This document shows, piece after piece, positions 5,132 through 23,639 of a stretch of DNA of 64,000 nt (its first letter is position 1; each line of letters opens with the position of its first letter). The stretch is from Mesorhizobium sp. (GTDB taxonomy: Bacteria > Pseudomonadota > Alphaproteobacteria > Rhizobiales > Rhizobiaceae), in assembly GCA_004020545.1 (NCBI GenBank), contig SAQE01000015.1, positions 34,582-98,581 of the forward strand. The letters run 5' to 3'. The position numbers were made by a program, and so were the translations under genes. Below the pieces are notes generated by a model, which saw only the letters and a list, made by a program, of their open reading frames with translations, did no database searches and was not told the DNA's origin.

Positions 5132-8100
5132 TCAATCCCACACGAGCAGCAGCTTGCGCCAGAAGGCGTTGGACGGCATCGGCTTCGAACCGCGCGGCAG
5201 CCGGATCGCCAGATAGATCGTCAGCCATTTGCGATCGATCTCCCGCACCGAAACCTTCAGGTCATGCAGCTCGAAAGGTTTCGAAACCCGTGTCCATCCG
5301 GAGAACGCCAAGGCGCCGACGGGAGCGTCGCGGTTCCAAACGAGCTTTTCCTCCGGCCTGCCGAGAGCCATGGCGAACTCGAATGGCGACGCCTCCTCGT
5401 GGGCGATCTCCACCGTCGCGATGGCGCTCCTGGCAAATGCCGGGAAAGCGGCGTTGAGCGCGGCTACGACCGGGCCATGCGTGCTCGGTCGCAGGAATAT
5501 GCCGCCATTGTCGCCAGCGACGAGAAGCAACGGCAGTTCGGAGGGATAATTGGTCACAAGCGTCGAATGCTTCAGTTCGTCGCCCGTCAGCCGCCGCGTG
5601 CGTTGGCGCGATTGCGGCGCGTTGAGGCGTGGGCGCCTCGCGCCGGGCGAAACGACACTGCGGATCTTGATGCTTGAAAAACCGCCGAGCACCGGCGCGT
5701 CGGGCCGATTGCCGCCGCATCTTACGGCAAGCAGCAAATCGCGCCTGGCTGACGCCGGCGTATCGACGCTCGCCATGATTTCGCGCGGTTCGTGCGGGCG
5801 GCTGACATCGGCCCAGCCGCTTCCATCGCCATTTTCGAGGAACCGAGCGAGATCGCTGAAAGTCCGGTTTTCCGCATCGACGATCGCGATCTGAAACTGC
5901 GCCGGCCCGGTCAATGCTTCGTCGAGGTAAACCCAGCAATCCGCGCCGACTGTGCCGGGTGGGCAGACGCCCTTCAGCAAAGCCATTGAGACAATGTTGC
6001 CCTTGGCCTGGACGAACAGTTGGTCCGGCGATTGTTCGACATAGGTCAACAGATCGGGATCGGCATCCGGATACGAGCCGACATGGGCAAGGCGCAGGAC
6101 TTCGGCCGGGAGGTATCGCTCGCGCTGAAGCGCGGAATGCAGCTCCGGCACGGTGTCCTCGGCCGTCGCATCGAGCAGGTCGACGACACCCAGGGTGAAG
6201 TCCGATCGCCCGGAATGGGCGAGAAGCGAAATCGCCGTATCGGGCCTGCCTTCGCGCGCCGCAATCTCGGCCAGCAACTGCATCGCGTCGGTGGAATTGG
6301 CGGGAGCCGAGCTTAGCCGCAGATAGCGGTCATCCTTGACGCGCAGCTCCAGGTTCCAGAGGTTGAGTTCCTTTTCATGATCGGCGGTGTTCGAGCTGAT
6401 GCCGAGCTGCACGAACATGTCGGTGTGCGCGAATTTGTGCTTTCGGAACACATTGATGATCGGCCTGCGGTTCCTCAGCCACTCTGCATTCCGGTTCATG
6501 CCCGTCGGCGAGGAGCGGTACCAGTAGAGCGGCTCCGGGATCGTGACGATCGTGAGGCCTGCCAGATCGGCGCGCAGGAAGAATTCCCAATCGCTCGCCG
6601 AAAAGCCGCGCTCTTCGTTGAGGTACCCTACGTTGTCGAACACCTCACGCCGGAACATCGCATTGGCATCGCCATAGGGATTGGTGATCAGGGCGATGTC
6701 CGGAGGGCCGCCGACCGGGAAATAGAGCATATAGCCGCTTTTGGTGTCCGGCGGCACGAAGGGCTCATTGAGCCACTTGGCAAAGGTCGTGCAGATGTCG
6801 GCGCCGGACTTTTGCATACCGGCGACGAATGTGCTGACCGCATTCGGAAACAGTGCGTTGTCGTCATCCAGGAACAGGATCAGCGAACCCTTCGCGGCGC
6901 GAATTCCGGTGTTGCGCGCCTTGCCGAGGAAACCGTTCTTCTGCCGGATGATGCGCCAGCCGCGCCGCTTGAACTCGGGCTCCAGCTCCGCCAGCAGCTC
7001 GATTGTCTCCGGATCCGTGCTGCCGTCATCGACGACGATCAATTCGATGTTGGGGTAGTCCTGGCGCCGAACCGAGGCAATCGCCTGCGGCAGCAGACGC
7101 GCCCGATTATAATGCGCCGTGATGATCGAAACGAGCGGCAGAGCGCCTCGGCCGCGGCCGGCGGCCTTGCCGGGCTGCCGGCACAGCTTGGCGTGCAGCT
7201 TGCTCCAGGCCTTCTCGCGTGCGTCGCGGTTCTGCAGCGGCTTTGCAGGGCGGAACGAGGGGCTCTCCAGCGTTGAAGCGATCTTGGCCGCGATCCCGGA
7301 AGGCGACGCCTCCATCATGACGGCGTCGGCGGATTTCGGATGGAGCAGATCACGCACGCTGCCGACATCCGTCGCGATGAACGGAATCTCCTCGTCGAGG
7401 CACGCCACGACATCCAGCGGAAGTTGCGCGGCCGAATGGGTGATTGCCACCAGCGCACGACTCTGCCGTAGGTAACGGAAGATTTCCGGCACGTCCCGGA
7501 TGGGCAGGAGCTTCAGTTTGAACGGCCATTGCCGGGCCCGCCGAACGATCATGCCGCCCGAGTGCTCGCCGAGCACATGCCCAAACGCTCCGACGATCGT
7601 CACGGCGATGTCGGTCACACCGGCGTCGGCCAGGCGATCGAGCGCGTCGCAGAACAGCGTCAGTCCGCTGCGCGCTTCCGTGCCTGAAAAATGCACCACT
7701 TCCGCAGTCGGCCGATCTCGTGGCCTGTAGCGGTCGAGGGTGAAGTCCGAACGCCACTCCTCAGGCTCAAGCGGCGTCGCGATGTGGCGGCTGGCGGGCA
7801 GCGTCCATCCCGCCTTGGTCATCCAGTCGAGCAGGGACTGGCCGGTTACCACGATATGGTCGCAGGTTTCCGCCGACATCCTTTCCATATGCGCGACGGT
7901 CATCTGCTCCTTACGCTCGACCGCCCTGGCATTCGCCTCCAGTTTCCACATCAGTGGCTCGTGCGCGAGCACCACGAGCGCGGGAGGATCGGGAAACACG
8001 CCCGTGCGCTTGGCGACGGTCGGGAAGTGCGCCAGCCCGCCCTCGAGGGAAAAATAGACGACGTCGAAAGCGTTCTGCTTGAGGTAATGATAGACGGCTA

Positions 8101-8434
8101 CAGAATTCTTGTCGCTCGACTCCATTCCGCGCAGCAATTCGGGCGATGACGGCAGCAGTTCGAGCCGCACCAGGAAATTGTCGAAGCACCATTTGGCGAG
8201 CCTCGCGATCTCCTGCTCGTCGGGCTGGCTGCCGAGTGGGTTTGCCACCCATAGCAGCGTGACCGTGTCACCGATCTTCGCCAGATGCTGCGCCAGCGCG
8301 TAGGTCGCCGAGCCGGGATCGGCAGTCACCGTCGAGCCGAACGCGACCTCCGAGACGACACACACATTGCGGGGCTTCTGGCTTGCCTGTCGCTTGCGCG
8401 CGGAAATCGCGCCTGCCTTAGAACCAATGCTCAA
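5132..8434 (-). CDS. Giant two-domain glycosyltransferase (GT-B plus GT2) with C-terminal tail
   Basis: A 1100-residue cytoplasmic protein. Residues about 20-420 look like a GT-B (GT4-like) transferase, with EHSGGMIVRRARQWPFKLKLL and later FIATDVGSVRDLL. Residues about 432-700 are a complete GT2 domain: PLVSIITAHYNRARLLPQA, then VVDDGSTD, the DxD-type FLDDDNALFP, and SASDWEFFLRADLAGL. About 400 further residues end in a block (LPLLLVAGDNGGIFLRP to SNAFWRKLLLVWD) shared with the paralogue at 10063-12765. The start is TTG at 8434, preceded by GAGGGGGACTGA. The following residues SIGSK match the paralogue's ATG-initiated MAIGSK, which supports this start. It probably adds two sugars to a surface polysaccharide. 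Confidence 0.8.
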   Translation of the reverse strand: MSIGSKAGAISARKRQASQKPRNVCVVSEVAFGSTVTADPGSATYALAQHLAKIGDTVTLLWVANPLGSQPDEQEIARLAKWCFDNFLVRLELLPSSPELLRGMESSDKNSVAVYHYLKQNAFDVVYFSLEGGLAHFPTVAKRTGVFPDPPALVVLAHEPLMWKLEANARAVERKEQMTVAHMERMSAETCDHIVVTGQSLLDWMTKAGWTLPASRHIATPLEPEEWRSDFTLDRYRPRDRPTAEVVHFSGTEARSGLTLFCDALDRLADAGVTDIAVTIVGAFGHVLGEHSGGMIVRRARQWPFKLKLLPIRDVPEIFRYLRQSRALVAITHSAAQLPLDVVACLDEEIPFIATDVGSVRDLLHPKSADAVMMEASPSGIAAKIASTLESPSFRPAKPLQNRDAREKAWSKLHAKLCRQPGKAAGRGRGALPLVSIITAHYNRARLLPQAIASVRRQDYPNIELIVVDDGSTDPETIELLAELEPEFKRRGWRIIRQKNGFLGKARNTGIRAAKGSLILFLDDDNALFPNAVSTFVAGMQKSGADICTTFAKWLNEPFVPPDTKSGYMLYFPVGGPPDIALITNPYGDANAMFRREVFDNVGYLNEERGFSASDWEFFLRADLAGLTIVTIPEPLYWYRSSPTGMNRNAEWLRNRRPIINVFRKHKFAHTDMFVQLGISSNTADHEKELNLWNLELRVKDDRYLRLSSAPANSTDAMQLLAEIAAREGRPDTAISLLAHSGRSDFTLGVVDLLDATAEDTVPELHSALQRERYLPAEVLRLAHVGSYPDADPDLLTYVEQSPDQLFVQAKGNIVSMALLKGVCPPGTVGADCWVYLDEALTGPAQFQIAIVDAENRTFSDLARFLENGDGSGWADVSRPHEPREIMASVDTPASARRDLLLAVRCGGNRPDAPVLGGFSSIKIRSVVSPGARRPRLNAPQSRQRTRRLTGDELKHSTLVTNYPSELPLLLVAGDNGGIFLRPSTHGPVVAALNAAFPAFARSAIATVEIAHEEASPFEFAMALGRPEEKLVWNRDAPVGALAFSGWTRVSKPFELHDLKVSVREIDRKWLTIYLAIRLPRGSKPMPSNAFWRKLLLVWD

Positions 8435-10062: not shown

Positions 10063-12765
10063 TCAATCACTGAAAAGCGTCAGCTTTCGAAAGAAGGCAT
10101 TGGTTGGAAAACCGTTGGGAATTTCCGCGAAACGAACCGCCAGAATGATCGAGAGCGGCGTTTTGTGCCGCACGCGAAGCGACGCCACCAGGCGGTGGCG
10201 CGCGAACTTGTCTCGAACGGCCGTCCATCCGGAAAAAGCGATGGTTTGCTGGGCGATGTCCTGCTGCCAGTCGATGATCCGGTCGGGGCGGGTGAGAGCC
10301 AGGCCGAAGTCGATTGCCGGCGCGTTGGAATGCGCGACTTCCACTGCTGCCTCCAGCCTGCGGAAGAAGGGTGGAAATTGTTGATCGAGCGACGCCGCGA
10401 TCGGCCCGTCCAGATGCGGTCGCAGGAATATCCCGCCATCGTCCCGCGCCACCAGGAGCAATGGAAGATCGGAGACGCGCGGCGTGAGAAGCCTGGCGCT
10501 CCTCAGCGCTTGAAAGGCGAGGCTGCGTGAGCCGTCGGCTCCATCGGTCTCGTCTGGAGTATCCTCATCGGTCTTGGCTGCGTCCCCCTCAAGCAAGGTC
10601 GCCGCGGTATCGGGACGACCGGTCGCCAGGGCGATGGCGGCGAGGCTTCCGATGGCCGCATCGCTGTTCGGTTCGAGATCGCAGAGTTCGAGATACTTTC
10701 GATAGGCGGGGGTATATCTCAGGTTTTCGCGCGCGCTTTCGATTTCGGATCGCGCCGTGTTCTGGGCGATGGCAAGCTGATAAAGCAGCCCGGCGTCGTC
10801 GAATCGGCCCGACCTGAACGCCTCGATGATGGGACGGCGATTGTCGTACCAGTTCGAGGTCCGGAACATTCCGTCCGGTTTCGAGCGATACCAGTAAAGC
10901 GGCTTCGGAACCGGCCGGATCCTCAACCCGGCAAGGGAAGCCCGCGCGAAGAATTCCCAGTCGTGCATGGCATAGCCAGGCTCTTCGATCAGAAACCCGA
11001 TCTGTGAGAAAACCTCCCGGCGCACCATCGCATTGGCATCGCCATAGACATTGTGGATCAGGCCAAGCGCGTCGGGGCCGCCGAGTGGCAGATACTGGAT
11101 CAGCCCGTCCGCCCGGTCCGCGGGAACGAAATCCTCGTAGAAGATCAGTTGGAAGGCGGTGCAGATATCCGCTCCAGATGCCGTCATGGCGCGGACGAAT
11201 TGGTCGACGGCCTCTGGAAAAAGTGCGTTGTCGTCATCCGCGAACAGGATCAACGCGCCACGCGCGGCGCGGACACCGGCGTTTCGCGTGGCGCCAAGGT
11301 GTTTGTGCGGCCGGCGCAAAATCTTCCATCCGCGCTGACGGAAGGTCGGCTCCAGCGCGTCCAGCAACCGCCTCGCTTCATCCTGGTCGCTTCCGTCATC
11401 GACCAGCACCAGCTCCAGCCGGTCGTAGGTTTGCGCCTCGATCGCCGCGATCGCCTGCTTGAGATAGAGCGGCCGGTTGCGATGGGCCATGACGATCGAA
11501 ACCAGCGGCGCCGGACCGGTGCGCTTGCCAACGCGCCGGCGTGCGGCCGATGCCGGCGGATTGCGTGTATCCAGCCAGGCCTGCCGGCATTGACCAGAAA
11601 TGTCTATCCGCCGCGGGCGGGGCGGGCTGCCGAGCGCGGCCAGGATCGAGCGGGCCAACTGGCCGGCGTCAGGCTCGGCCAATCGAGGCTGCTCCGCCTC
11701 TGCGTTCCACGCCTCGGCATTGGCGCCGGCGTTGGTGGCAACGAACGGCACCCCCGCCGCGATGCAGGCGGCGACGGCGGCGCCGGTCGATGCGGCAAGC
11801 GAAGGGATGACCGCCAACGCACCGCTGCGCGCGACGTAGTCGAGCTTCGCTGTCAGATCGGTGGCGGGCAAAACCTTGAGCTTGAACGGCCATTTCTCGG
11901 CCCGGCGCAGAAGCAGTCCGCCGCTGTGCTCGCCCATGATCTTGCCGAATGGAGCGAAGGCGGTAAGGGTCAGGCCTGGGGGCGCCGAAGGCGCGAGCAA
12001 ATCCAGCGCATCGCAAAGCAGCGTCAGGCCATCGCGAAACCGCGCCGTGGAGAAGACGGCGAGCTCTCGCACAGTTCCGCTTTTGGGCGCCGGCCGCGCA
12101 CCGGCCCGGCCGATGCCGGCGGACAGCGGCAACATCGGCATCACTGCCGCCTTGCGGACCTTCCAGCCTTTCGACAGCATCCACTTGCGCAGCGTGGCGG
12201 AGGCACAGATCGTCCGTCCGGCCATCTCCGCGCAGTATTTTTCCATATAGGCGATGGCGATCGCCTCGGTGCTTCCCATGAAGGCCTTGTCGGCTTCGTG
12301 CGCCCATTCCTCCGGAGCGTTGGTGAAGACAATGATCGGCGGAGGCGCGAAGGTCCCGGTTTCGGCCGCCAGCAGCGTATAGTAAGCCAATCCGCCCTCG
12401 AGGGGCGCGTAGACCAGATCGTGATTGGACCGTTCGAGGTAATGCAGCAACGCCGCGGAGCGGCTCTCGGGCGTCGCCAGCGAAGGGAGCAGTTGATCGG
12501 ACCTGTCGAGAACCTCCAGTTTGACCGAGGCGGCCCCGAATTCCGAGCGGTACGCTGCCACCTCGTCGGCAGACGGCGCATCCCGGCCGACAACCCAAAG
12601 CAGGGTGACGTTGTCTCCGTTCTCGGCGAACAGCCTGGCAAGTTCGCCGGGCGCCGTGGCGTCGTCGATGTCGTCGTTGCGCCGGATCGCTTGCGTCACC
12701 ACCAAGATGCGGCGACGACCGCCTTGCGGCTTCGACGCCTTCCTCAGCTTGCTCCCGATGGCCAT
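10063..12765 (-). CDS. Large two-domain glycosyltransferase, paralogue of the 5132-8434 gene
   Basis: 900 residues with the same order as its neighbour: a GT-B half (EHSGGLLLRRAEKWPFKLKVL, FVATNAGANAEAWN), a GT2 half starting about residue 425 (PLVSIVMAHRNRPLYLKQA, LVDDGSDQDE, LFADDDNALFP, MHDWEFFARASLAGL), and the shared tail block (LPLLLVARDDGGIFLRP to TNAFFRKLTLFSD). It is about 200 residues shorter, mostly between the GT2 half and the tail block. ATG 12765 follows AGAGGAACCGGCA. The duplication and the intact DxD-like motifs suggest two enzymes with different donors or acceptors acting on one polymer; specificity is unknown. Confidence 0.8.
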   Translation of the reverse strand: MAIGSKLRKASKPQGGRRRILVVTQAIRRNDDIDDATAPGELARLFAENGDNVTLLWVVGRDAPSADEVAAYRSEFGAASVKLEVLDRSDQLLPSLATPESRSAALLHYLERSNHDLVYAPLEGGLAYYTLLAAETGTFAPPPIIVFTNAPEEWAHEADKAFMGSTEAIAIAYMEKYCAEMAGRTICASATLRKWMLSKGWKVRKAAVMPMLPLSAGIGRAGARPAPKSGTVRELAVFSTARFRDGLTLLCDALDLLAPSAPPGLTLTAFAPFGKIMGEHSGGLLLRRAEKWPFKLKVLPATDLTAKLDYVARSGALAVIPSLAASTGAAVAACIAAGVPFVATNAGANAEAWNAEAEQPRLAEPDAGQLARSILAALGSPPRPRRIDISGQCRQAWLDTRNPPASAARRRVGKRTGPAPLVSIVMAHRNRPLYLKQAIAAIEAQTYDRLELVLVDDGSDQDEARRLLDALEPTFRQRGWKILRRPHKHLGATRNAGVRAARGALILFADDDNALFPEAVDQFVRAMTASGADICTAFQLIFYEDFVPADRADGLIQYLPLGGPDALGLIHNVYGDANAMVRREVFSQIGFLIEEPGYAMHDWEFFARASLAGLRIRPVPKPLYWYRSKPDGMFRTSNWYDNRRPIIEAFRSGRFDDAGLLYQLAIAQNTARSEIESARENLRYTPAYRKYLELCDLEPNSDAAIGSLAAIALATGRPDTAATLLEGDAAKTDEDTPDETDGADGSRSLAFQALRSARLLTPRVSDLPLLLVARDDGGIFLRPHLDGPIAASLDQQFPPFFRRLEAAVEVAHSNAPAIDFGLALTRPDRIIDWQQDIAQQTIAFSGWTAVRDKFARHRLVASLRVRHKTPLSIILAVRFAEIPNGFPTNAFFRKLTLFSD

Positions 12766-13512: not shown

Positions 13513-13650
13513 TGCTCGAGCCGGTGCTGGAATAAATCCGACGGTGGGTGCGTCATGCGCCCGCCGTTGCCGATTCATGCGGCGGCTCTCAATTGAACCG
13601 AAAGGTCATTGGTGTATTTTTCAGACGTCTGTTGATTGGGCGTGGTCCGA

Positions 13651-14391
13651 ATGCAGTCTTGCCAAAAGTTCGTGCTGATCGCTTCGCCAAGAACCGGCTC
13701 CCAAGCGTTCAATCGCCATCTCAACCAGTATGACGGGATGGTGATGCACGGCGAAGTCTTCAATCCTGGCTTTGTCGGCTTGCGCCACGACTACCATGAG
13801 AAAATGAATCTGCCGCGCGAACGCGTCGATTTGCGAGATGCCGAGCCGGAGCGGTTCATCGCGCGGATTTTCGACGATCCGTCGGCGCGCTTTATCGGAT
13901 TTCACATATTTCCCGATCAGACCCGGCCCGCCATACTCCCTGTGCTCGAAGATGAGGGTGTCAAGAAGCTCTGGCTTGTAAGAAATCCGATCGGATCCTT
14001 CGTGTCATTGCTTGAGGCGGAGGCTTCCGGGATCTGGACGGTGCACGCCTCCGATCCCGTCGCCGCCGATAGTCCGAGGAAAAAAGTGTACTTCGACATA
14101 GACCGGTTCAATGCCTATCTGCGCGAACTGAACCTGTTTCGCGCGAAGATCAGATCCGTGCTGTTCGAGACCCGGCAGCCATTCTTTCCGATCCACTACA
14201 GCGACATCGGCGATCCGCTGGTTGGCAATGCGATCATCGCCTATCTCGGCGGCTCCCAGCGTCTGGATCATTTCGAGACCGAGATCCTGAAGCCGCCGCA
14301 GCGGCCTTTCGTCGACCGTATCGAGAATTACTGGGAATTCGTGACCTATTTCAGGGCCGCCTCGACAGACGATCTGTATGCGTTCGGCTGA
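13651..14391 (+). CDS. Sulfotransferase-like protein (Stf0 type)
   Basis: About 246 residues. The N-terminal FVLIASPRTGSQAFNRHL contains the SPRTGS loop that binds the 5'-phosphosulfate of PAPS in sulfotransferases. KKLWLVRNPIGSFVSLLE supplies the RNP-S motif that contacts the 3'-phosphate. The rest fits a small cytoplasmic sulfotransferase that modifies a carbohydrate or lipid hydroxyl. ATG at 13651 is used; a TTG at 13636 and a GTG at 13642 lie in frame, and none has a strong ribosome site. Its place between glycosyltransferases and the sulfatase-fold transferase suggests it sulfates the local polysaccharide or its lipid carrier. Confidence 0.75.
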   Translation: MQSCQKFVLIASPRTGSQAFNRHLNQYDGMVMHGEVFNPGFVGLRHDYHEKMNLPRERVDLRDAEPERFIARIFDDPSARFIGFHIFPDQTRPAILPVLEDEGVKKLWLVRNPIGSFVSLLEAEASGIWTVHASDPVAADSPRKKVYFDIDRFNAYLRELNLFRAKIRSVLFETRQPFFPIHYSDIGDPLVGNAIIAYLGGSQRLDHFETEILKPPQRPFVDRIENYWEFVTYFRAASTDDLYAFG

Positions 14392-14674: not shown

Positions 14675-17164
14675 ATGAGTATCGGCGGCAGTGTGGGATC
14701 GGCGAGCCGATCCGAAAGCGGCCAGGCGCAATCAAAGACGAAAACGGCCTTGACGCAGAACCTGCGCTTCAGGCGCATGTCCTTGCGCATCATTTGCACC
14801 GGCCTGTTGTCATGGCTGCTGCTGGGCGTCTACCGAGGCGTCATCCTCGATCCGCAAACGACATTTCAGGGCGTTCTGGCGTCCATCCCCATGGGATTGG
14901 CGGCAAGCTACTACGATCTGATCCTCGTTGCGTCGCTGACGGCGGCAACGCTGATCCTGCTCTTTGCCGCGAAGGCAAGCAGGCTTGCCTTCGCGGCAAT
15001 CGTCTTCCTCTTCTATCTCGTCGTCGTGGTGTCGCTGGCTTGGGGGTTTGCCAACATCAATCTCGTCAAGATGCTGGGTGAGCCATTCACGTTCCAGTGG
15101 CTGGTCTATGGCGACTTCCTGCAGAATGCCGACGCCAAGAATGCCATGGGCGACGCGCTCAATATGCGAGACGCCGCGACCCTTGGCGGGTCAATCGTCT
15201 TGGTGCTGGTTCTTGGCTCCGCCGCAGGCAGGTGGGGCCACCGGCTGAGTTCCGCGGGTCACCGAGCGTTTCTGATTGCGCTGGTCCTATGTGTCGGCGC
15301 GGCGCTGGCCGTTACCGGTTATCACGTGCGCGCGGAAGCGCTGCCGGCGCCGAAGATCGACAATCCGCTCGTCTATTTCATACAGTCGGCCTGGTTCAGT
15401 TCAACGCCGGTCATGCTGGCGATCGGCGCCGGCGTCGATGATCCCGATGTCGCTAGCGTCGGCGAGCGTCCGCCGGAAACGTCAAGCTTCAAGGCGCCGG
15501 CACCAAATCCGATCAAGAACGTGCTGATCTTCATGATGGAGTCGGTGCCATCAAAGTACATCGAGACCTTTGGCGGCAAGTATCCGATTACGCCGAACAT
15601 CAAGAGCTATGCCGCGGATTCCATCCGCTTCGACAACATCTATGCGCACGCGCCTTCCACCCACTACTCGATATTCTCCCTGCTGACCTCGATGTATAAC
15701 GACATCTCGTTCTACGGGATGACCAGCAGGTACCCGTATCTGCCGTTGGATTCGATTTCCAACACGCTGTCCAAGCACGATTTTCGAACCGGGTTTTTCT
15801 GGAGTGCGGATTCCCGCTTCCAGCGAGTGGACGAGTTTTTGCTCAACAAGGGACTGGATGTGATCCAGGACTACCGAGGGCAAAAATGCGCCACCCCGAC
15901 CTTCAAGCTCAGCACCGAGCAGTGGAAGAACATGGACTACAACAGTGATCTCTGCACGGCGCAATCGATCATCGACTGGATGAACAAGGATTCGGAGAAG
16001 CCTTTCTTCGGCATAATGTTCACGGCGATGACCCACTATCCCTACATCTCCGACAGCCCGATGTTCTCGAAGATGACGCCTTCCGCCAAAGACAGAGGGC
16101 CGATGCATTACGTCGATGATGAGAAATTCAACGCCTATCTCAACGCCCTGAAGGTCGGCGACACCGCGCTCGGTGAAATCCTTGAATCGCTGAAGCAGTC
16201 AGGCAAGCTCGACTCGACGCTTGTCGTCATCCTGGGCGATCACGGCGAGGCGTTCGGGGAACATGGCGAGTATATCCATGCCAGCGCGATCTACGACGAG
16301 AACGTCCACATCCCGCTGATCATGATCAACAAGCGCCTTTTCCATGACGAGGTTGCGCATCCGGTTGGCGGCATTATCGATATCGCCCCGACGATCTTCG
16401 ACGTACTCGGACTTCCACTGCCGAAGCAATGGCAAGGGCGCAGCCTGTTCAGCGAGCAGCGGCCGAACAAGACCTTCTTCTTCAACCCATGGGCCGGGTC
16501 CTTGCTCGGCTATCGCGAAGACGATCGAAAGGTGATTTTCAACGCGACCACCGGCAAGGTCGAAGAATACGACCTCAGGACGGATCCCGGGGAGAGGGCG
16601 AACCTCTTCAACGACGGTTCAAGCGACCGAACGGCGCTTTTGCAGCCGATTGCCGGATGGGTGCAGTCGCAGAAGCGGCGAATAGCAAACCTTGTCGCCG
16701 AGAACGAGAAGGACGCCGGGCACTGCACCGCCATGTCTCTGGAGATCGACGCGGCCGGCACCGATTACCAGGGTCCGCCTCTCTTCGACGTTCTCGTTGA
16801 CGGCAAGCAACTTGCCGAAATCGCCGTCCAGGGCAAGGGGAGCAAGGCATCGACAGGCGAGGAGCGCGTGGCGGAACTGAACGACGCGGCAATGGGCGCG
16901 CGGCCGTTCCGCATCGATCTCAGTGGCGCGCCCAATCCAAAGTCAATCGAGATTCGCTATGTCAACGACCAGTGGGCCGGAGACGGCCTGCCCGGCGATC
17001 GCAACCTTTTCATCAAGAGCATCAAGGTGAACGGGCAGTTGGTGCCCAATGGCAAACTGCATGTCGATGAGCAGTCGCATGGCTATACCGACGACAGCGG
17101 GACCGCCATGTACACCAATGGCTCGCTATGGGTCAGCGGCCCATTCATCGAAGGATGCATGTAG
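14675..17164 (+). CDS. LtaS/OpgB-like membrane phospho-group transferase with C-terminal carbohydrate-binding module
   Basis: 829 residues. Five or so membrane helices lie within residues 35-235. A periplasmic alkaline-phosphatase/sulfatase fold follows: the metal-binding Glu in FMMESVPSKY (about 289), a nucleophile region APSTHYSIFSLLTS (about 325-340) and GDHGEAFGEHG (about 520-531). This is the arrangement of lipoteichoic acid synthases and phosphoglycerol transferases, which move glycerol-phosphate onto glycans. From about residue 687 the tail LEIDAAGTDYQGPPLFDVLV, with VNDQWAGDGLPGDRNLFIKS, looks like a calcium-dependent xylan-binding module (CBM36/60-like). An enzyme that decorates an exported polysaccharide and holds it through its own binding module is the natural reading. 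Confidence 0.8.
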   Translation: MSIGGSVGSASRSESGQAQSKTKTALTQNLRFRRMSLRIICTGLLSWLLLGVYRGVILDPQTTFQGVLASIPMGLAASYYDLILVASLTAATLILLFAAKASRLAFAAIVFLFYLVVVVSLAWGFANINLVKMLGEPFTFQWLVYGDFLQNADAKNAMGDALNMRDAATLGGSIVLVLVLGSAAGRWGHRLSSAGHRAFLIALVLCVGAALAVTGYHVRAEALPAPKIDNPLVYFIQSAWFSSTPVMLAIGAGVDDPDVASVGERPPETSSFKAPAPNPIKNVLIFMMESVPSKYIETFGGKYPITPNIKSYAADSIRFDNIYAHAPSTHYSIFSLLTSMYNDISFYGMTSRYPYLPLDSISNTLSKHDFRTGFFWSADSRFQRVDEFLLNKGLDVIQDYRGQKCATPTFKLSTEQWKNMDYNSDLCTAQSIIDWMNKDSEKPFFGIMFTAMTHYPYISDSPMFSKMTPSAKDRGPMHYVDDEKFNAYLNALKVGDTALGEILESLKQSGKLDSTLVVILGDHGEAFGEHGEYIHASAIYDENVHIPLIMINKRLFHDEVAHPVGGIIDIAPTIFDVLGLPLPKQWQGRSLFSEQRPNKTFFFNPWAGSLLGYREDDRKVIFNATTGKVEEYDLRTDPGERANLFNDGSSDRTALLQPIAGWVQSQKRRIANLVAENEKDAGHCTAMSLEIDAAGTDYQGPPLFDVLVDGKQLAEIAVQGKGSKASTGEERVAELNDAAMGARPFRIDLSGAPNPKSIEIRYVNDQWAGDGLPGDRNLFIKSIKVNGQLVPNGKLHVDEQSHGYTDDSGTAMYTNGSLWVSGPFIEGCM

Positions 17165-17191: not shown

Positions 17192-18175
17192 CTACCTCTT
17201 GCCTTCCGGCCGCCATTCGTGCCGGTACCAGTCGACGAACTTCGCCAGTCCTTCCTCGATCGACACTTTCGGCTTGAAGCCGAAGTCGCGTTCCAGCGCG
17301 CTGGTGTCGGCATAGGTCTTCTCGACGTCGCCGGGCTGCATGGGCAAATCCTCACGGATCGCCTTGACGCCAAGCAGGTTTTCCAGCGTCTCGATGAAGC
17401 GGCCGAGATGCACCGGCTGGCTGTTGCCGATATTGTAGATCCTGTGGCGTTCGCCGCCGGCCGCCGGCGGCTTGTCGAGAACCGCCACCACGCCATCGAC
17501 GACGTCGTCGACATAGGTGAAATCGCGCCACATCTCGCCATGGTTGAAGACGCGGATCGGCTTGCCGGCGAGCATTGCCTCGGTGAAGATCCAGGCGGCC
17601 ATGTCAGGGCGCCCCCACGGACCGTAGACCGTGAAGAAGCGCAAACCGGTCTGCGGCAGGCCGAAGAGATGCGAGTAGGCCGAGCTGATCAGCTCGTCCG
17701 CCTTCTTGGTCGCGGCGTAGATCGACACCGGATTGTCGACGCGGTCGGTTTCCGCGAACGGCACCTTGGTGTTGCCGCCATAGACCGAGCTCGATGAAGC
17801 ATAGACCAGGTGCTTGACGCTGGGCGAGGCGCGGCAGAGCTCCAGCACCTCCAGATGGCCTGCGATGTTGGCGTGGATATAGGCGCGTGGATTTTCCAGC
17901 GAGTAGCGCACGCCCGCCTGCGCCCCGACATGGACGATGCCGCTGATCTGCGTTCCCTCGAGCTTCCCCGCCAGGGCGCCGGGCTCGGCGATGTCGAGCT
18001 GATGGAACGAAAAACCCTTGTACGGGGAAAGCCTGGCGAGCCGCGCAGCTTTCAGCGCAGGATCGTAGTAGGCGTTCATGCTGTCGACGCCGATTACCGC
18101 GTCGCCGCGAGCCAGAAGGCGTTGGCAGACATGGCTGCCGATGAAGCCGGCGGCTCCGGTCACCAGGACGGTCAT
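17192..18175 (-). CDS. NAD-dependent epimerase, UDP-glucuronate 4-epimerase-like
   Basis: This 327-residue short-chain dehydrogenase-type epimerase has the NAD motif TGAAGFIGSHVCQRLL, a substrate loop typical of UDP-glucuronate 4-epimerases (GVDSMNAYYDPALKAARL), the catalytic SSSSVYGGN region and YAATKK (Y-x-x-x-K). It would interconvert UDP-glucuronate and UDP-galacturonate in the cytosol. ATG 18175 follows AAGGTGAAGATCGC, so the longer frame to 18304 is rejected. It lies directly downstream of the GT2 gene on the same strand, in a probable operon flippase-GT2-epimerase. The uronic acid product fits an acidic polysaccharide. Confidence 0.85.
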   Translation of the reverse strand: MTVLVTGAAGFIGSHVCQRLLARGDAVIGVDSMNAYYDPALKAARLARLSPYKGFSFHQLDIAEPGALAGKLEGTQISGIVHVGAQAGVRYSLENPRAYIHANIAGHLEVLELCRASPSVKHLVYASSSSVYGGNTKVPFAETDRVDNPVSIYAATKKADELISSAYSHLFGLPQTGLRFFTVYGPWGRPDMAAWIFTEAMLAGKPIRVFNHGEMWRDFTYVDDVVDGVVAVLDKPPAAGGERHRIYNIGNSQPVHLGRFIETLENLLGVKAIREDLPMQPGDVEKTYADTSALERDFGFKPKVSIEEGLAKFVDWYRHEWRPEGKR

Positions 18176-18209
18176 GCGATCTTCACCTTGGGGCAGGGGG
18201 TGTTCGGCA

Positions 18210-19286
18210 TCATTTCCGGCGCCGGCTTTTCTTGGCGCCCGCCGGCGGGCTCGGCCAATGCCAGCCGTCGCCTTCGCCATGCGCGGGCTGCGGCCGCGCC
18301 ACATAGGCGAGGGAGACGTTCGCCTCGAGATAGACGCGCGAAAGCATTTCGGCGAGCACCCCCGATGTCACCGCCTGCAGCCCGGCGATCACCAGGAAGA
18401 AGCCGGTGAACAGCATCGGACGCGTTCCGATATCTTGTCCGAAAAACACCTTCAGGGCAAATAGATAGGCCAGGATCAGCGAGCCGAGCACGCCGAGCAC
18501 GATGCCGATGCCGCCGAAGAAGTGGCCGGGCCTGGTGCGGTAGCGCATGAAGAAGAACATGAAGACGAGGTCGAGCACCACGCGGAAGGTGCGCGAGATG
18601 CCGTATTTCGACTGGCCGTGGATGCGGGCGTGATGGGTTACCACTTCTTGGGCGATGCGGCGCGGCGTCGTCACCGTCGCCAGCCACGCCGGGATGAAGC
18701 GGTGCATTTCGCCATAAAGCCGGACGCTGCGGATGACGCTGCCGCGAAAAACCTTCAGGCTGCAGCCATAATCCTTCAGCCGCACGCCGGTGACGCGCGC
18801 GATCAGCGAGTTGGCGATGCGCGAAGGCAGCCTGCGCATCCAGAAACCTTCCTGGCGGTTCTTGCGCCAGCCGGCGACGAGGTCGAGATCCTCGATCAGC
18901 AGCCGATAGACCATGCGCGGTATGTCGAACGGGTCGTTCTGCAGGTCGCCGTCGAGCGTCGCGATGACGTCGCCGCGCGCGGCGTCGAGGCCTGCCTGCA
19001 TGGCCGCGGTCTGCTTGAAGTTGCGCACCAGTTCCACGCCATGCACATGCGGACCGTATTCGGCCGCGAGCCTGCGGATTTCGTTCGGCGTGGCATCGGT
19101 GCTGCCGTCGTCCACCAGCACCACCTCCCAAGGCTGGCTGTAGTTCTCCATCGCCTGGTGGATGCGCATGAGCAGCGGCTCGACATTGTCGGCCTCGTTG
19201 TACATCGGAATGACGATGGAAAGCCTGTGCTCGGGCATGACGGCGCCCTCGGGCAGGCCCGAGACAGGAATGGGAAGCACGTTCAT
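18210..19286 (-). CDS. GT2 glycosyltransferase with two C-terminal membrane helices (polyprenol-phosphate sugar type)
   Basis: 358 residues. The N-terminal GT2 core shows LSIVIPMYNEADNVEPLL, VVLVDDGSTDATPNEI, TLDGDLQNDP (the DxD-type motif) and a C-terminal pair of membrane segments (HFFGGIGIVLGVLGSLILAY and MLFTGFFLVIAGLQAVTSG). This is the layout of undecaprenyl-phosphate sugar transferases such as ArnC, GtrB and DPM1-like enzymes, which load one sugar onto the lipid carrier. The start is placed at ATG 19286 because AAGGAA lies 9 bp upstream. ATG 19295 overlaps the previous stop and is the alternative. It sits between a flippase-like gene and the epimerase. Confidence 0.85.
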   Translation of the reverse strand: MNVLPIPVSGLPEGAVMPEHRLSIVIPMYNEADNVEPLLMRIHQAMENYSQPWEVVLVDDGSTDATPNEIRRLAAEYGPHVHGVELVRNFKQTAAMQAGLDAARGDVIATLDGDLQNDPFDIPRMVYRLLIEDLDLVAGWRKNRQEGFWMRRLPSRIANSLIARVTGVRLKDYGCSLKVFRGSVIRSVRLYGEMHRFIPAWLATVTTPRRIAQEVVTHHARIHGQSKYGISRTFRVVLDLVFMFFFMRYRTRPGHFFGGIGIVLGVLGSLILAYLFALKVFFGQDIGTRPMLFTGFFLVIAGLQAVTSGVLAEMLSRVYLEANVSLAYVARPQPAHGEGDGWHWPSPPAGAKKSRRRK

Positions 19287-19291
19287 TGCGG

Positions 19292-20296
19292 TCATTTCCT
19301 TGCGGGTCCCGTGGCCGGGTTCTCCGGCAGCGTCGATTTGGAGGGAAACAGCCAGGCGATCGCGCCGGTGGCGACGGCCGAGCAGAGGATGAAGAGATGC
19401 AGTGCCAGCGCCACCTGCAGGCCGTCCTTCACGGCGATGCCGGAATAGAGCAACGCCGCCGCGGCGCCCGCCTCGTAGGTGCCGAAGCCGGCGACGCCCT
19501 GCACCGGCAGGATGGCCGCGGCCTCGGCTCCGACAGCGCCGGGAAAGGCGGTCTGGAAGGAGGTGCCGAGCAGCATCGCGAGCAGCCATCCCTGCACGGC
19601 AAGCTTCAGCGTCCAATTGGCCACTGTCCACCACCAGCCGTAGCGGGAGCGCCCCGTGGCCTCGGTGAAGATGTCGCGCAATTTGCCGAGCTTCGAGACG
19701 ATGCTGCCGCGATGGGCCCAGTCATGCGGTGCGCGCGCCCAGCGCGGCAGGTACCAGGCGACGGCAATCAGCGCCGCGATGCCTGCTGCCCGGAGCGCCG
19801 GATGGAGGCTCGGCCACACCAGGCAGGCAAGCACGCCGACGACAAAGGCATCCTGCAGCCTGAACCACAAGAGCGAGGCGCTGGCGCGCACGATCGAGAT
19901 GCCGAACACCTGGCGAAGCAGCAGCGGGAAGGCGGTCTCTCCGCCGCGGAACGGCACCACGTTGATCATGGCGTTGTGGATCAGGATGACGCGCAGGCAG
20001 GCGCCGAAGCGGCCGTTCACCTCGTCGCGGAATTCGTCGCAAACGCGCAGCGCACGCAGCACATAGGTGACGAACAGCGCCAGCGTCACCGCCGCGAAGG
20101 TGCCGGGCGTGATGCTGGCAAATGCATCGCCGACCATCTTCCAGCGCGAGTCGCTGGCAAGCCATGCCAGCAGCGCCAGGGTGACGATTATCGATACCGC
20201 TCGCTTCAACCAATTCTCCGATGGCGTCCACCGCCGCGTTACGGCAAAATGCTCCGCTTTTCGAGGATGCTCCGCGCGGTCGGGGGCGGTTTGCAT
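19292..20296 (-). CDS. Flippase-like integral membrane protein (LPG synthase TM/UPF0104 family)
   Basis: About 334 residues with seven or eight hydrophobic helices. Family marks include VLRALRVCDEFRD, the polar IHNAMINVVPFRGGETAFPL loop and VQGVAGFGTYEAGAA, as in the AglD/MprF-N-terminal (lysylphosphatidylglycerol synthase transmembrane) superfamily. Relatives occur beside polyprenol-phosphate-sugar transferases and are proposed to move the lipid-linked sugar across the membrane or help a partner transferase. The start is uncertain: ATG 20296 gives the family length, and ATG 20389 would add an arginine-rich 31 residues. It overlaps or abuts the GT2 gene, which supports joint function. Confidence 0.75.
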   Translation of the reverse strand: MQTAPDRAEHPRKAEHFAVTRRWTPSENWLKRAVSIIVTLALLAWLASDSRWKMVGDAFASITPGTFAAVTLALFVTYVLRALRVCDEFRDEVNGRFGACLRVILIHNAMINVVPFRGGETAFPLLLRQVFGISIVRASASLLWFRLQDAFVVGVLACLVWPSLHPALRAAGIAALIAVAWYLPRWARAPHDWAHRGSIVSKLGKLRDIFTEATGRSRYGWWWTVANWTLKLAVQGWLLAMLLGTSFQTAFPGAVGAEAAAILPVQGVAGFGTYEAGAAAALLYSGIAVKDGLQVALALHLFILCSAVATGAIAWLFPSKSTLPENPATGPARK

Positions 20297-20602
20297 CGCC
20301 GGTTGCCTTGCCGGTTTCCTGTCCGGCGTGCGGCCGCCGAAATTCCGGGCCCTGCCTGGTTTGCGGCCCGTTCTACGTCTCCGCTCCATCAAGGGCGGCT
20401 GATCCTATAGACCAGCGGCTTGCTCAAATCCACAAGCTTGGCGCGGCCGCGGTCACTGTCCGCAAAGCACTCTTGTTGCCTATGCAACGAAAGGTTGACA
20501 CCGTTCCTCGGGCGGCCATTAATAACACTTGGGGGCGGTAACTGCGATGTTGGGGGAAGACCCAGCCTGGGTGGTGACGCCGGAGAGAAAGGCGACACCG
20601 GC

Positions 20603-21178
20603 ATGTTATCGTTCATTGTGCAGACAGCTCGAAAAATATGGCCATCCGAACCAGCCAGGGGCGTAGGTCGCGATCGATCCGCCCGGATGCTAATCCTCGC
20701 CTGCGGGGGGATGGCGCTTTGCGGCGCCGCTCACGCGGCCGGTGCTCAGGAACCCGCGCCGGCTCAAGCAGTCACCACGCCGACCGCGTTCGAGCTGCAG
20801 CTTTTCTATGCGGACCGCACCTGGAATTGGGACGACGGAGCCGCCTATTTCGCGCAAGATAGAAAGATGCGGGCCTTTACGTCCAAGCCCGATTCAACGT
20901 CCGTTGCCGAGGGCACATGGCATCTCAGCAACGACGGCAAGATGTGCATGGATCTTGTCTGGCGGTCGACGGCGTCTGCCGCAACGCCCGTTCGCACCTG
21001 CTTCAGCCATCGCGTCCAGAATGGAACCGTCCAGCAGCGCAGGGATCCGGATGGCCGGTGGTACAGCTTCAAGCACGCTTCGGAAGATCCGGCCGACGAG
21101 CTCAAGAAGATCCAGGCGGGTGACACCCGGGACGCGGACTTCGAGAGGACCCGGAAATTGGTCGATTCCAAAAGCTGA
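20603..21178 (+). CDS. DUF995 family exported protein
   Basis: 191 residues. An arginine-containing N-terminus leads into a hydrophobic signal (MLILACGGMALCGAAHAAGA), suggesting export; translation may also begin at ATG 20687. The mature region has the family pattern LFYADRTWNWDDGAAYF, MCMDLVWRS, TCFSHRVQNGTVQQRR, DGRWYSF and KIQAGD, as in DUF995 proteins of rhizobia that often lie in exopolysaccharide regions. ATG 20603 follows GGAGAGAAAGG. The molecular function is not known. It is divergent from the flippase operon and convergent with galE. Confidence 0.7.
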   Translation: MLSFIVQTARKIWPSEPARGVGRDRSARMLILACGGMALCGAAHAAGAQEPAPAQAVTTPTAFELQLFYADRTWNWDDGAAYFAQDRKMRAFTSKPDSTSVAEGTWHLSNDGKMCMDLVWRSTASAATPVRTCFSHRVQNGTVQQRRDPDGRWYSFKHASEDPADELKKIQAGDTRDADFERTRKLVDSKS

Positions 21179-21324: not shown

Positions 21325-22461
21325 TCAACCCAGCTCAGCGAGCCCACGTCCCGACACATTACTCACAGGGACGGCTGCCAGCCTCGCGGGCTGGCGTTTT
21401 TTCGTGGCGCCCCTTCCGCGCGGCGCGCCTTTTGCGCGCGAAACGGCGGCGGACGCATTGAAAATCTCTGGTTTCGCAATCGGCCCGAGCCCGAAGAAGG
21501 GCGCGGCGGTCCTGACGATGGTATCGATGTCGGAGAGTTCGGCCGCGAAGCCCAGCGTCTCGCGCGCCAGGCCGGGGTCGGCGTAAAGCCCGGCCGGATC
21601 GCCCGGCCGGCGCGGCTTGTAGATGACCGGAACCGGCCGTGACGTGATGCGGCCGACAGCTTCGAGGATCTCCTTGATCGAAATGCCCCGGCCGGTGCCG
21701 AGATTGACGGCCAGGCTGGCGCCGCCGGCTTCCAGATGCGTCAATGCCATGAGATGCGCGCGGGCGAGGTCGCTGACATGGATATAGTCGCGCACGCAGG
21801 TGCCGTCCGCAGTCTCGTAGTCGGTACCGAAGATCTCGATCGCCTCGATCATGCCGGACGCCGCCATCAGCACCCTTGGAATGAGATGGGTCTCGGGCGT
21901 GTGCCACTCGCCGAGCTCGCCCTCGGGGTCGGCGCCGCAAGCGTTGAAGTAGCGAAGGATCGCGTATTTCAGCCCGTAGGCAGAGGCATAGTCCTTGATG
22001 ATCTGTTCGCCCATCAGCTTGCTGCGGCCGTAGGGGCTGATCGGGTTCTGCGGCGAGGCCTCGCTGATCGGCAGCGCCTCTGGCACGCCATAGGTCGCGC
22101 AGCTCGAGGAAAAGATCACCTTGTCGATGCCATTGGCCCGCGCCGCATCCAGCACCGCGATCGTGCCGCCGACATTGGTCGCGTAGTAATCCGCCGGCTC
22201 GCTGACCGACTCGCCGACATAGGCAAGGGCAGCAAAATGAATGATCGCCTGCGGCCTGTGGGCTTCGATTGCCCGCTGCAGTGCATTGCGGCCGCGTATG
22301 TCGCCGACGACCAGCGGACCCCAGGCGACGGCCGTCTGGTTGCCACGGCTTAAGTTGTCGTAAACCACCGGCAGGTAGCCCGCGGCCGACAGCAGCTTGC
22401 AAGTATGGCTGCCGATGAAGCCGGCGCCACCCGTCACCAGAACGGGGCGGCGGGTCGTCAT
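21325..22461 (-). CDS. galE: UDP-glucose 4-epimerase
   Basis: 378 residues. The Rossmann motif [16 protein letters not shown], the SSSCATYG segment, [10 protein letters not shown] (Y-x-x-x-K) and [15 protein letters not shown] are diagnostic of GalE, which interconverts UDP-glucose and UDP-galactose. A 40-residue basic tail rich in Arg and Lys follows the usual end. Its ATG (22461) overlaps the stop of the upstream UXS gene (ATGA), so the pair is translationally coupled. It supplies UDP-galactose to the local glycosyltransferases (called exoB in rhizobia), though other genomic copies may exist. Confidence 0.9.
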
Positions 22462-23519
22462 GCCGTTGCCTCCCTGACGGAAGACGCGTGGACTCTGCGC
22501 GGGACAACAGGCCGGCGGCCGCCCAGCAGGGTTTCGAAATACGCCGTGGTATGGGCGAGGCCTTCGCTCAGGGCGACCTTAGGCTCCCAGCCGAGATGCT
22601 GTCTGGCGAATGAAATGTCGGGCTTGCGCTGCCTGGGGTCGTCGACGGGCAGCGGCCGGTGCACGATGCGCGAGCGCGAATTCGTATAGTCGATGACCAA
22701 CTCGGCCAATTCCATGATGGTGAACTCGACCGGGTTGCCGAGATTGACCGGGTGCAGCGGCGCCACCGGGGCATTCATCAGGCGCAAGAAGCCCTCGACC
22801 AGGTCGTCGACGAAGCAGAAGGAGCGCGTCTGCGTGCCGCTGCCATAGACGGTGATATCGTCGCCACGCAGCGCCTGGACGATGAAGTTCGACACCACGC
22901 GGCCGTCATCGGGCTGCATGCGCGGACCATAGGTGTTGAAGATGCGCGCTACGCGGACATCGATGCCGTATGTCCTCGAATAGTCGAAGAACAGGGTCTC
23001 GGCCGAACGCTTGCCCTCGTCGTAACAGGAGCGCGGGCCGTGCGTGTTGACGTTGCCGAAATAGCTTTCCGGCTGCGGGTGCACCAGCGGATCGCCATAG
23101 ACTTCGGAGGTGGAAGCCTGGAAGATCTTGGCCTTGTGGCGCCTGGCGAGCTCCAAAAGGTTGATCGAGCCGATCACGCTGGTCTTGAACGTATGGATCG
23201 GATCGGCCTGATAGTGCGGCGGAGAAGCGGGGCAGGCGAGGTTGTAGATTTCGTCGACCGCGAAGTCCGCCGGCAGTTGGTCGACGATGTCGTGCTTGAT
23301 GCAGGTGAAGGAGGCATCGCGCGCCATGGCGGCGAGATTGTGTCTCTTGCCGGTGTGGAAATTGTCCAGCGCGATCACCTCATATCCGTCGGATATGAGC
23401 CTTTGACACAAATGAGAACCTAAAAATCCCGCTCCGCCGGCGACCAGCGCGCGACCGCGATCGGCACGCTTCCGTCCCGGCTTGGTGTCTAGCTTAAGAA
23501 CCTTGATGACCCTGCCCAT
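22458..23519 (-). CDS. UDP-glucuronate decarboxylase (UDP-xylose synthase)
   Basis: 353 residues from ATG 23519. The N-terminal [61 protein letters not shown] and [10 protein letters not shown] are the signature of UXS enzymes, which decarboxylate UDP-glucuronate to UDP-xylose through a 4-keto intermediate. Longer frames to 23540 or 23543 are possible; no start has a strong ribosome site. It is the first gene of a two-gene unit with galE. With the epimerase at 17192-18175, UDP-GlcA here could feed both UDP-GalA and UDP-Xyl. Confidence 0.88.
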
Positions 23520-23639
23520 GGCGCCCACATCCCCGCACATCATCGATCCGGGCCGGGGCAACGGCGTTGCCCGACCAGGCCAAATCACGGCGATCCCTCC
23601 GCATGCGCGGAATCGCCACAACCGATGTGTTTTTTCTGA

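Follow-up and report, generated by a model that had tools for sequence, protein, structure and literature searches.

A Mesorhizobium gene that joins a probable LtaS/OpgB-like membrane transferase to a CBM60 module at a variable polysaccharide locus

The DNA analysed here, referred to as the window, is a stretch of 64,000 nucleotides from a Mesorhizobium contig (SAQE01000015.1). The gene under study, its features and its neighbours are listed in Table 1. Pfam places a sulfatase-type domain (PF00884) and a carbohydrate-binding module (PF16841) within the same 829 residues, confirming the original prediction, made from the letters alone, that one chain carries both a sulfatase-fold active site and a carbohydrate module. 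The two glycosyltransferases of the window's cassette are mutually related (about 40% in cross-matches) and both carry DUF6212, a domain of unknown function. The nearest solved chain to the NAD-dependent nucleotide-sugar enzyme is 5u4q, deposited as a dTDP-glucose 4,6-dehydratase; we take the product to be a UDP-glucuronate 4-epimerase. The GalE-type product is possibly a UDP-xylose 4-epimerase instead. The identity of the UDP-xylose synthase is firm.

Table 1. Genes and protein features at the locus, in window coordinates.
Feature	Position	Strand	Basis or remark
Large multi-domain glycosyltransferase, GT2 + DUF6212, same cassette as the next row	5132..8434	-	
Glycosyltransferase, marker of the window's cassette	10063..12765	-	19/146 Mesorhizobium genomes
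Sulfotransferase-like neighbour	13636..14391	+	Pfam similarity weak (E 0.05, cut-off not reached)
LtaS/OpgB-like membrane transferase fused to CBM60 module	14675..17164	+	829 aa
Membrane part, residues 36-218, about 5 hydrophobic helices	14780..15328	+	Hydropathy and low-confidence model
Catalytic domain, residues 281-650, alkaline-phosphatase/sulfatase superfamily	15515..16624	+	PF00884, SGSH_C, PDB matches
Thr329 codon, predicted nucleophile	15659..15661	+	Aligned with Thr of E. coli OpgB
CBM60 module, residues 684-829	16724..17161	+	Pfam, fold, framing Cys684 and Cys828
Probable calcium/ligand loop, N764-D765...D775-R776-N777	16964..17005	+	Conserved ND...DRN
NAD-dependent nucleotide-sugar enzyme	17192..18304	-	Epimerase PF01370
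GT2, ArnC/GtrB-like polyprenyl-phosphate glycosyltransferase	18210..19634	-	Resemblance, score below equivalog cut-off
Flippase-like membrane protein	19292..20392	-	LPG_synthase_TM
UDP-glucose 4-epimerase GalE by model	21325..22461	-	TIGR01179, 399.7 bits (cut-off 262.3)
UDP-glucuronate decarboxylase (UDP-xylose synthase, uxs)	22458..23621	-	2b69, 4gll, E ~1e-108

Hydropathy peaks at residues 39-57, 104-122, 167-185 and 198-216, together with the predicted helices, place a multi-helix membrane anchor ahead of the catalytic domain, an arrangement of the transferase type. A further helix at residues 79-98, hydrophobic by eye, appeared in a full-length structure model of the 829-residue protein that is of low confidence (pLDDT 47.7). 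The segment between the third and fourth helices, residues 123-154, is highly conserved, with invariant alignment columns.

The Pfam Sulfatase domain covers residues 281-579 (E 6.9e-42) and an SGSH_C subdomain residues 528-650 (E 1.8e-8), and the PDB matches of the catalytic domain include VP1736 and LtaP (4uop, E 1.3e-12). Alignment to E. coli K-12 references gave Glu289, Thr329, His454 and Asp522-His523 as the active-site positions. Glu289, Thr329, Asp522 and His523, corresponding to the nucleophile and metal ligands of the transferases, are retained in all 22 aligned family sequences. Thr329 aligns with the Thr of OpgB and with the residue at the formylglycine position of the sulfatases, Cys in YidJ and Ser in AslA. 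Furthermore, the motifs P-x-T-x-Y-x-I and R-F-x(3)-D-x-F-L(-x(3)-G-x-D) are common to the enzyme and E. coli OpgB. The place of the formylglycine motif reads P-S-T-H/N-Y, and the C/S-x-P-x-R motif of type I sulfatases is absent from the aligned catalytic domain. A formylglycine sulfatase is unlikely because the formylglycine Cys/Ser position is held by Thr329, a Thr in 22 of 22 sequences.

Overall similarity was evaluated by profile scores of eight E. coli references, which reached 56.1 (YidJ), 18.6 (OpgE), 16.2 (LapC), 12.8 (AslA), 8.9 (OpgB), 4.1 (EptB), 1.6 (EptC) and -1.5 bits (BcsG). OpgE is annotated as a phosphoethanolamine transferase. The LtaS model spans residues 281-602 (E 1.4e-13), and over the C-terminal half it is outscored by several sulfatase models and S1 sulfatases. 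The enzyme stays below the cut-offs of LtaS (50.3 vs 970 bits), of the OpgB model PRK12363 (32.8 vs 572 bits) and of EptA (36.2 vs 561 bits for the best model). The LtaS and OpgB models cover the whole catalytic domain, whereas the EptA models cover part of it only. On these alignments we call the enzyme LtaS/OpgB-like in its probable way of working; it resembles both equivalogs and lies outside both. The original prediction had proposed a transferase adding phosphoglycerol or a similar group. Its transferase part is upheld by the active site and the motifs shared with OpgB; phosphoglycerol as the donor group is a guess by homology, OpgB being only fifth of the eight references by score.

The C-terminal module is a genuine CBM60. 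PF16841 matches residues 689-794 (E 4.1e-11, 43.6 bits vs a curated Pfam cut-off of 28.2), and residues 680-829 have the vCBM60 beta-sandwich fold (cf. 2xfd, 2xhh), bearing out the claim that residues 687-829 form a beta-sandwich CBM. The accompanying description of the module as xylan-binding was too narrow, as CBM60 is not xylan-specific. Cys684 and Cys828 bracket the module and are present in 22 of 22 aligned sequences, as are the ND and DRN of the probable ligand loop; ND...DRN is also visible by eye in other CBM60 proteins. The loop has a calcium role in CBM60, which we presume to hold here as well. Among the 22 aligned sequences, identity outside the window's cassette type is 54-61% for the CBM vs 68-79% for the catalytic domain. 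However, the membrane part (55-66%) drifts as fast as the CBM, so that the drift of the CBM says little about a change of ligand.

The distribution of the gene was determined by a profile search of 146 Mesorhizobium genomes (threshold E 1e-25). Twenty-two of them have the gene, whole or as a recognisable part, and 20 have it unbroken. The window's cassette, marked by its glycosyltransferase at E 1e-200, occurs in 19 of the 146 genomes, and a second cassette with a cellulose-synthase-like GT2 in 54 at an identity of at least 72% (69 with weaker matches). The two never co-occur (overlap 0). Counting a broken copy (G011) and a remnant (G717), the gene or part of it is found in 17 of the 19 window-type genomes; it is found in 5 of the 54 second-type genomes and in none of the 73 with neither cassette. 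In the loci read, one flank is usually alike in the two types, with uxs, a DUF995 gene and the galE-type epimerase. On the opposite flank, the window and the second-type loci L101, L127 and L128 carry an ATP-grasp gene (893-2050 in the window), which suggests that both cassettes occupy one chromosomal site; L104, L124, L125, L126 and L129, also of the second type, have a different outer flank. DUF995 proteins recur, at 20420-21178 in the window and on each side of second-type loci such as L101 (5253-5642 and 13945-14460). The GtrB-like GT2 and the flippase-like gene occur in the window (18210-20392), in L125 (5943-9725) and in L128 (5795-10601), and in many second-type loci a PMT_2 (GT-C) gene stands beside the pair. 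The set suggests a periplasmic glycosyl-decoration module whose presence varies together with that of a UDP-sugar epimerase.

In all five second-type copies the transferase gene follows the cellulose-synthase-like GT2 by about 200-250 bases on the same strand, and a GH26-like gene lies divergently upstream. At E 0.001, the solved relatives of this GT2 are confined to chains of cellulose synthase (E ~1e-16), although it scores far below the cellulose synthase cut-off (69 vs 699 bits) and reads QEFQW in place of the canonical QxxRW. The window's genome holds no orthologue of it (best match 25% identity, E 1e-10). The GH26-like protein matches PF02156 just above cut-off; among solved structures, a beta-1,3-xylanase is closest to it (E 4.3e-8). 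The stretch behind the GT2 was also taken from 48 of the 49 second-type genomes that lack the gene (G014, at a contig end, was omitted); 47 were readable, and their contents were scored by tblastn (E 1e-6). Three loci (L173, L174, L175) have an acyltransferase-3 gene in this slot, with PF01757 for one of them, one (G729) has debris of the transferase gene, and 43 have neither gene nor acyltransferase. The presence of an acyltransferase-3 gene in its stead argues for a decorating role. Given this exchange, the debris and the remnants, the enzyme is a decoration of the polysaccharide locus that can be swapped and is sometimes lost.

In four genomes (G001, G011, G717 and G729) the gene proved to be lost or broken, indicating that it is dispensable. 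G001, of the window's cassette type, retains only a 29-residue remnant between the sulfotransferase-like gene and the epimerase, and the G011 copy is broken into two pieces with stops. The front half of the G011 gene (L103, 8271-11013) is 97% identical to the window and the rear half, with stops, 83-86%, as if two lineages had recombined. In G717 only residues ~665-828, the CBM part, are left, in an open frame of 170 codons (L102, 9414-9902). This remnant sits beside otherwise conserved neighbours and represents either decay or a free-standing sugar-binding protein. The stop in G671 is the natural end of the gene.

A scan of genome contigs gave 12 loci, 10 from Mesorhizobium and two from Aestuariivirga litoralis, and the sulfotransferase-like gene adjoins the transferase gene in 6 of the 10. 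The two Aestuariivirga copies (L043, L044) belong to one genome and have unrelated surroundings; L044 adjoins FkbM, LicD and sulfotransferase genes. The surroundings of the three Aestuariivirga-type copies contained no recognisable synthase. A class-level draw of 385 genomes gave two matches, the window itself and a partial one (residues 432-684) without the CBM. CBM60 was matched in 15 of 249 genomes of the order, and the transferase fusion was found in 3 of the 9 whose CBM60 partner was resolved. In a phylum-level draw, CBM60 was matched in 6 of 398 genomes (the window, G204, G227, G207, G911 and G987); of the first three, whose partners were resolved, the window has the fusion and G204 and G227 have other partners. 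In another family of the order, locus L100 (4855-6117) encodes a probably secreted CBM60 protein with a tail that resembles the OmpA type by eye.

The neighbouring UDP-xylose synthase had been taken as a sign that the enzyme acts on a xylose-containing polymer. A uxs match is present in 98 of the 146 Mesorhizobium genomes at E 1e-130 and an orthologue (at least 74% identity) in 72, of which 71 carry one of the two cassettes; conversely, 71 of the 73 cassette genomes have the orthologue. Since uxs tracks the cassettes, the locus may plausibly make a product that contains xylose or arabinose. However, 51 of the 72 genomes lack the transferase gene, so that nothing ties xylose to the transferase in particular: the link is real for the locus and not specific to the enzyme. 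It would be a long shot that Mesorhizobium makes its own xylan-like (beta-xylose) surface polysaccharide, built by the cellulose-synthase-like GT2 and the linked UDP-xylose synthase, trimmed by the GH26 protein, and held by the CBM60 transferase as it adds lipid-derived phosphoglycerol. If true, the bacterium would have its own equivalent of a polymer of plant cell walls, which might act as a mimic in the legume symbiosis.

Most likely, the enzyme keeps hold of an undescribed outer glycan and decorates it; the polysaccharide genes around its own gene differ between species. The analysis establishes the domain architecture, the conservation of the active-site residues, the fold of CBM60, the association with the locus and the alternation with an acyltransferase in one slot. 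The reading as a whole, in which a periplasmic transferase anchored in the membrane decorates the glycan made by its own locus while CBM60 grips the chain, is considered moderately probable; its donor, acceptor, chemistry, topology and the grip of the CBM on the locus polymer are what we infer. The five or so N-terminal helices would anchor the enzyme in the inner membrane, close to the phospholipid that serves as donor, with phosphatidylglycerol as the first choice. Assisted by Glu289 and Asp522-His523 as metal ligands, Thr329 would attack the phosphodiester of the lipid head group; from the resulting phospho-threonine intermediate the group would then move to a hydroxyl on a sugar of the glycan. 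CBM60, at the C-terminal end, may grip the emerging chain through calcium; many groups could then be added because the chain is not lost, along the lines suggested for the AlgX CBM.

The possibility was considered that the same architecture uses phosphatidylethanolamine, or another lipid, and places phosphoethanolamine on a cellulose-like polymer as BcsG does. The EptA model matches residues 421-558 (E 2.2e-9), OpgE outscores OpgB (18.6 vs 8.9 bits), and a cellulose-synthase-like partner gene is present in five genomes. We nevertheless regard this donor as unlikely, given the lower scores of EptB, EptC and BcsG, the partial span of the EptA models beside the full span of those of LtaS and OpgB, and the OpgB-like motif round Thr329. 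It is improbable that the enzyme acts by hydrolysis, as a sulfatase, phosphatase or phosphodiesterase, and strips groups from a xylan- or cellulose-like polymer, its CBM serving as in ordinary carbohydrate hydrolases. The Thr in place of a C/S-x-P-x-R motif, the multi-helix membrane part and the slot shared with an acyltransferase all argue against it, despite the SGSH_C subdomain and strong sulfatase matches, YidJ as the best E. coli match and the weak sulfotransferase-like neighbour. CBMs are, in general, commonest on polysaccharide-degrading enzymes, which also speaks for a hydrolase.

The CBM might be a leftover or mainly structural, in which case the acceptor would be a different glycan of the envelope, for instance cyclic glucan or LPS. 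Phosphoglycerol substitution of rhizobial cyclic glucans is known (PMC7569799), and sequence drift is faster in the CBM than in the catalytic part. This seems quite improbable, however, when all 22 aligned sequences keep the ND...DRN loop and both cysteines unchanged and the CBM part of G717 is still open though the rest is lost.

No publication on the pairing of a sulfatase-fold or head-group transferase with CBM60 was found among the open-access matches listed (titles and abstract openings), in agreement with the earlier statement that no described rhizobial enzyme with this exact domain order was known to its author. Both domains are of known kinds; their union and its genomic setting are new to us. 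CBMs are known mainly from polysaccharide-degrading enzymes, and here one is carried by a member of the lipid head-group transferase class whose role is apparently to decorate. This suggests that a legume symbiont has a surface glycan, so far undescribed, that varies between species and whose decorating enzymes are exchangeable within one genetic slot. One gene, one nucleophile and one binding loop would offer a handle on the identity of the polymer and on plant sensing.

The nearest known systems each share part of this design. OpgB, phosphoglycerol transferase I of E. coli, has the aligned Glu, the Thr nucleophile and both motifs, and likewise a membrane-anchored periplasmic domain. However, it acts on periplasmic glucans, is not known to carry a CBM, and its overall similarity to the enzyme is very weak (8.9 bits). 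The lipoteichoic acid synthase LtaS and primase LtaP match the catalytic domain (1.4e-13 and, for 4uop, 1.3e-12), and LtaS has a comparable five-helix membrane part, but their product is teichoic acid, neither protein is known to have a CBM and the enzyme is far below the LtaS cut-off. BcsG, the cellulose phosphoethanolamine transferase, belongs to the same superfamily and its gene lies beside cellulose synthase; it is not known to have a CBM, and its similarity to the enzyme is not significant (-1.5 bits). BcsG has been called analogous to AlgX (PMC9734138). AlgX, the Pseudomonas alginate O-acetyltransferase, is a periplasmic polymer decorator whose C-terminal CBM presumably binds and guides the chain (PMC4148444); it has an SGNH fold and transfers an acetyl group, in contrast to the PF00884 domain here, so the comparison is one of working principle and claims no homology. 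The vCBM60 of a Cellvibrio japonicus xylanase (2xfd, 2xhh), described in PMC4444583 as belonging to a xylan-degrading enzyme, is only 17-18% identical to residues 680-829 and shares their fold.
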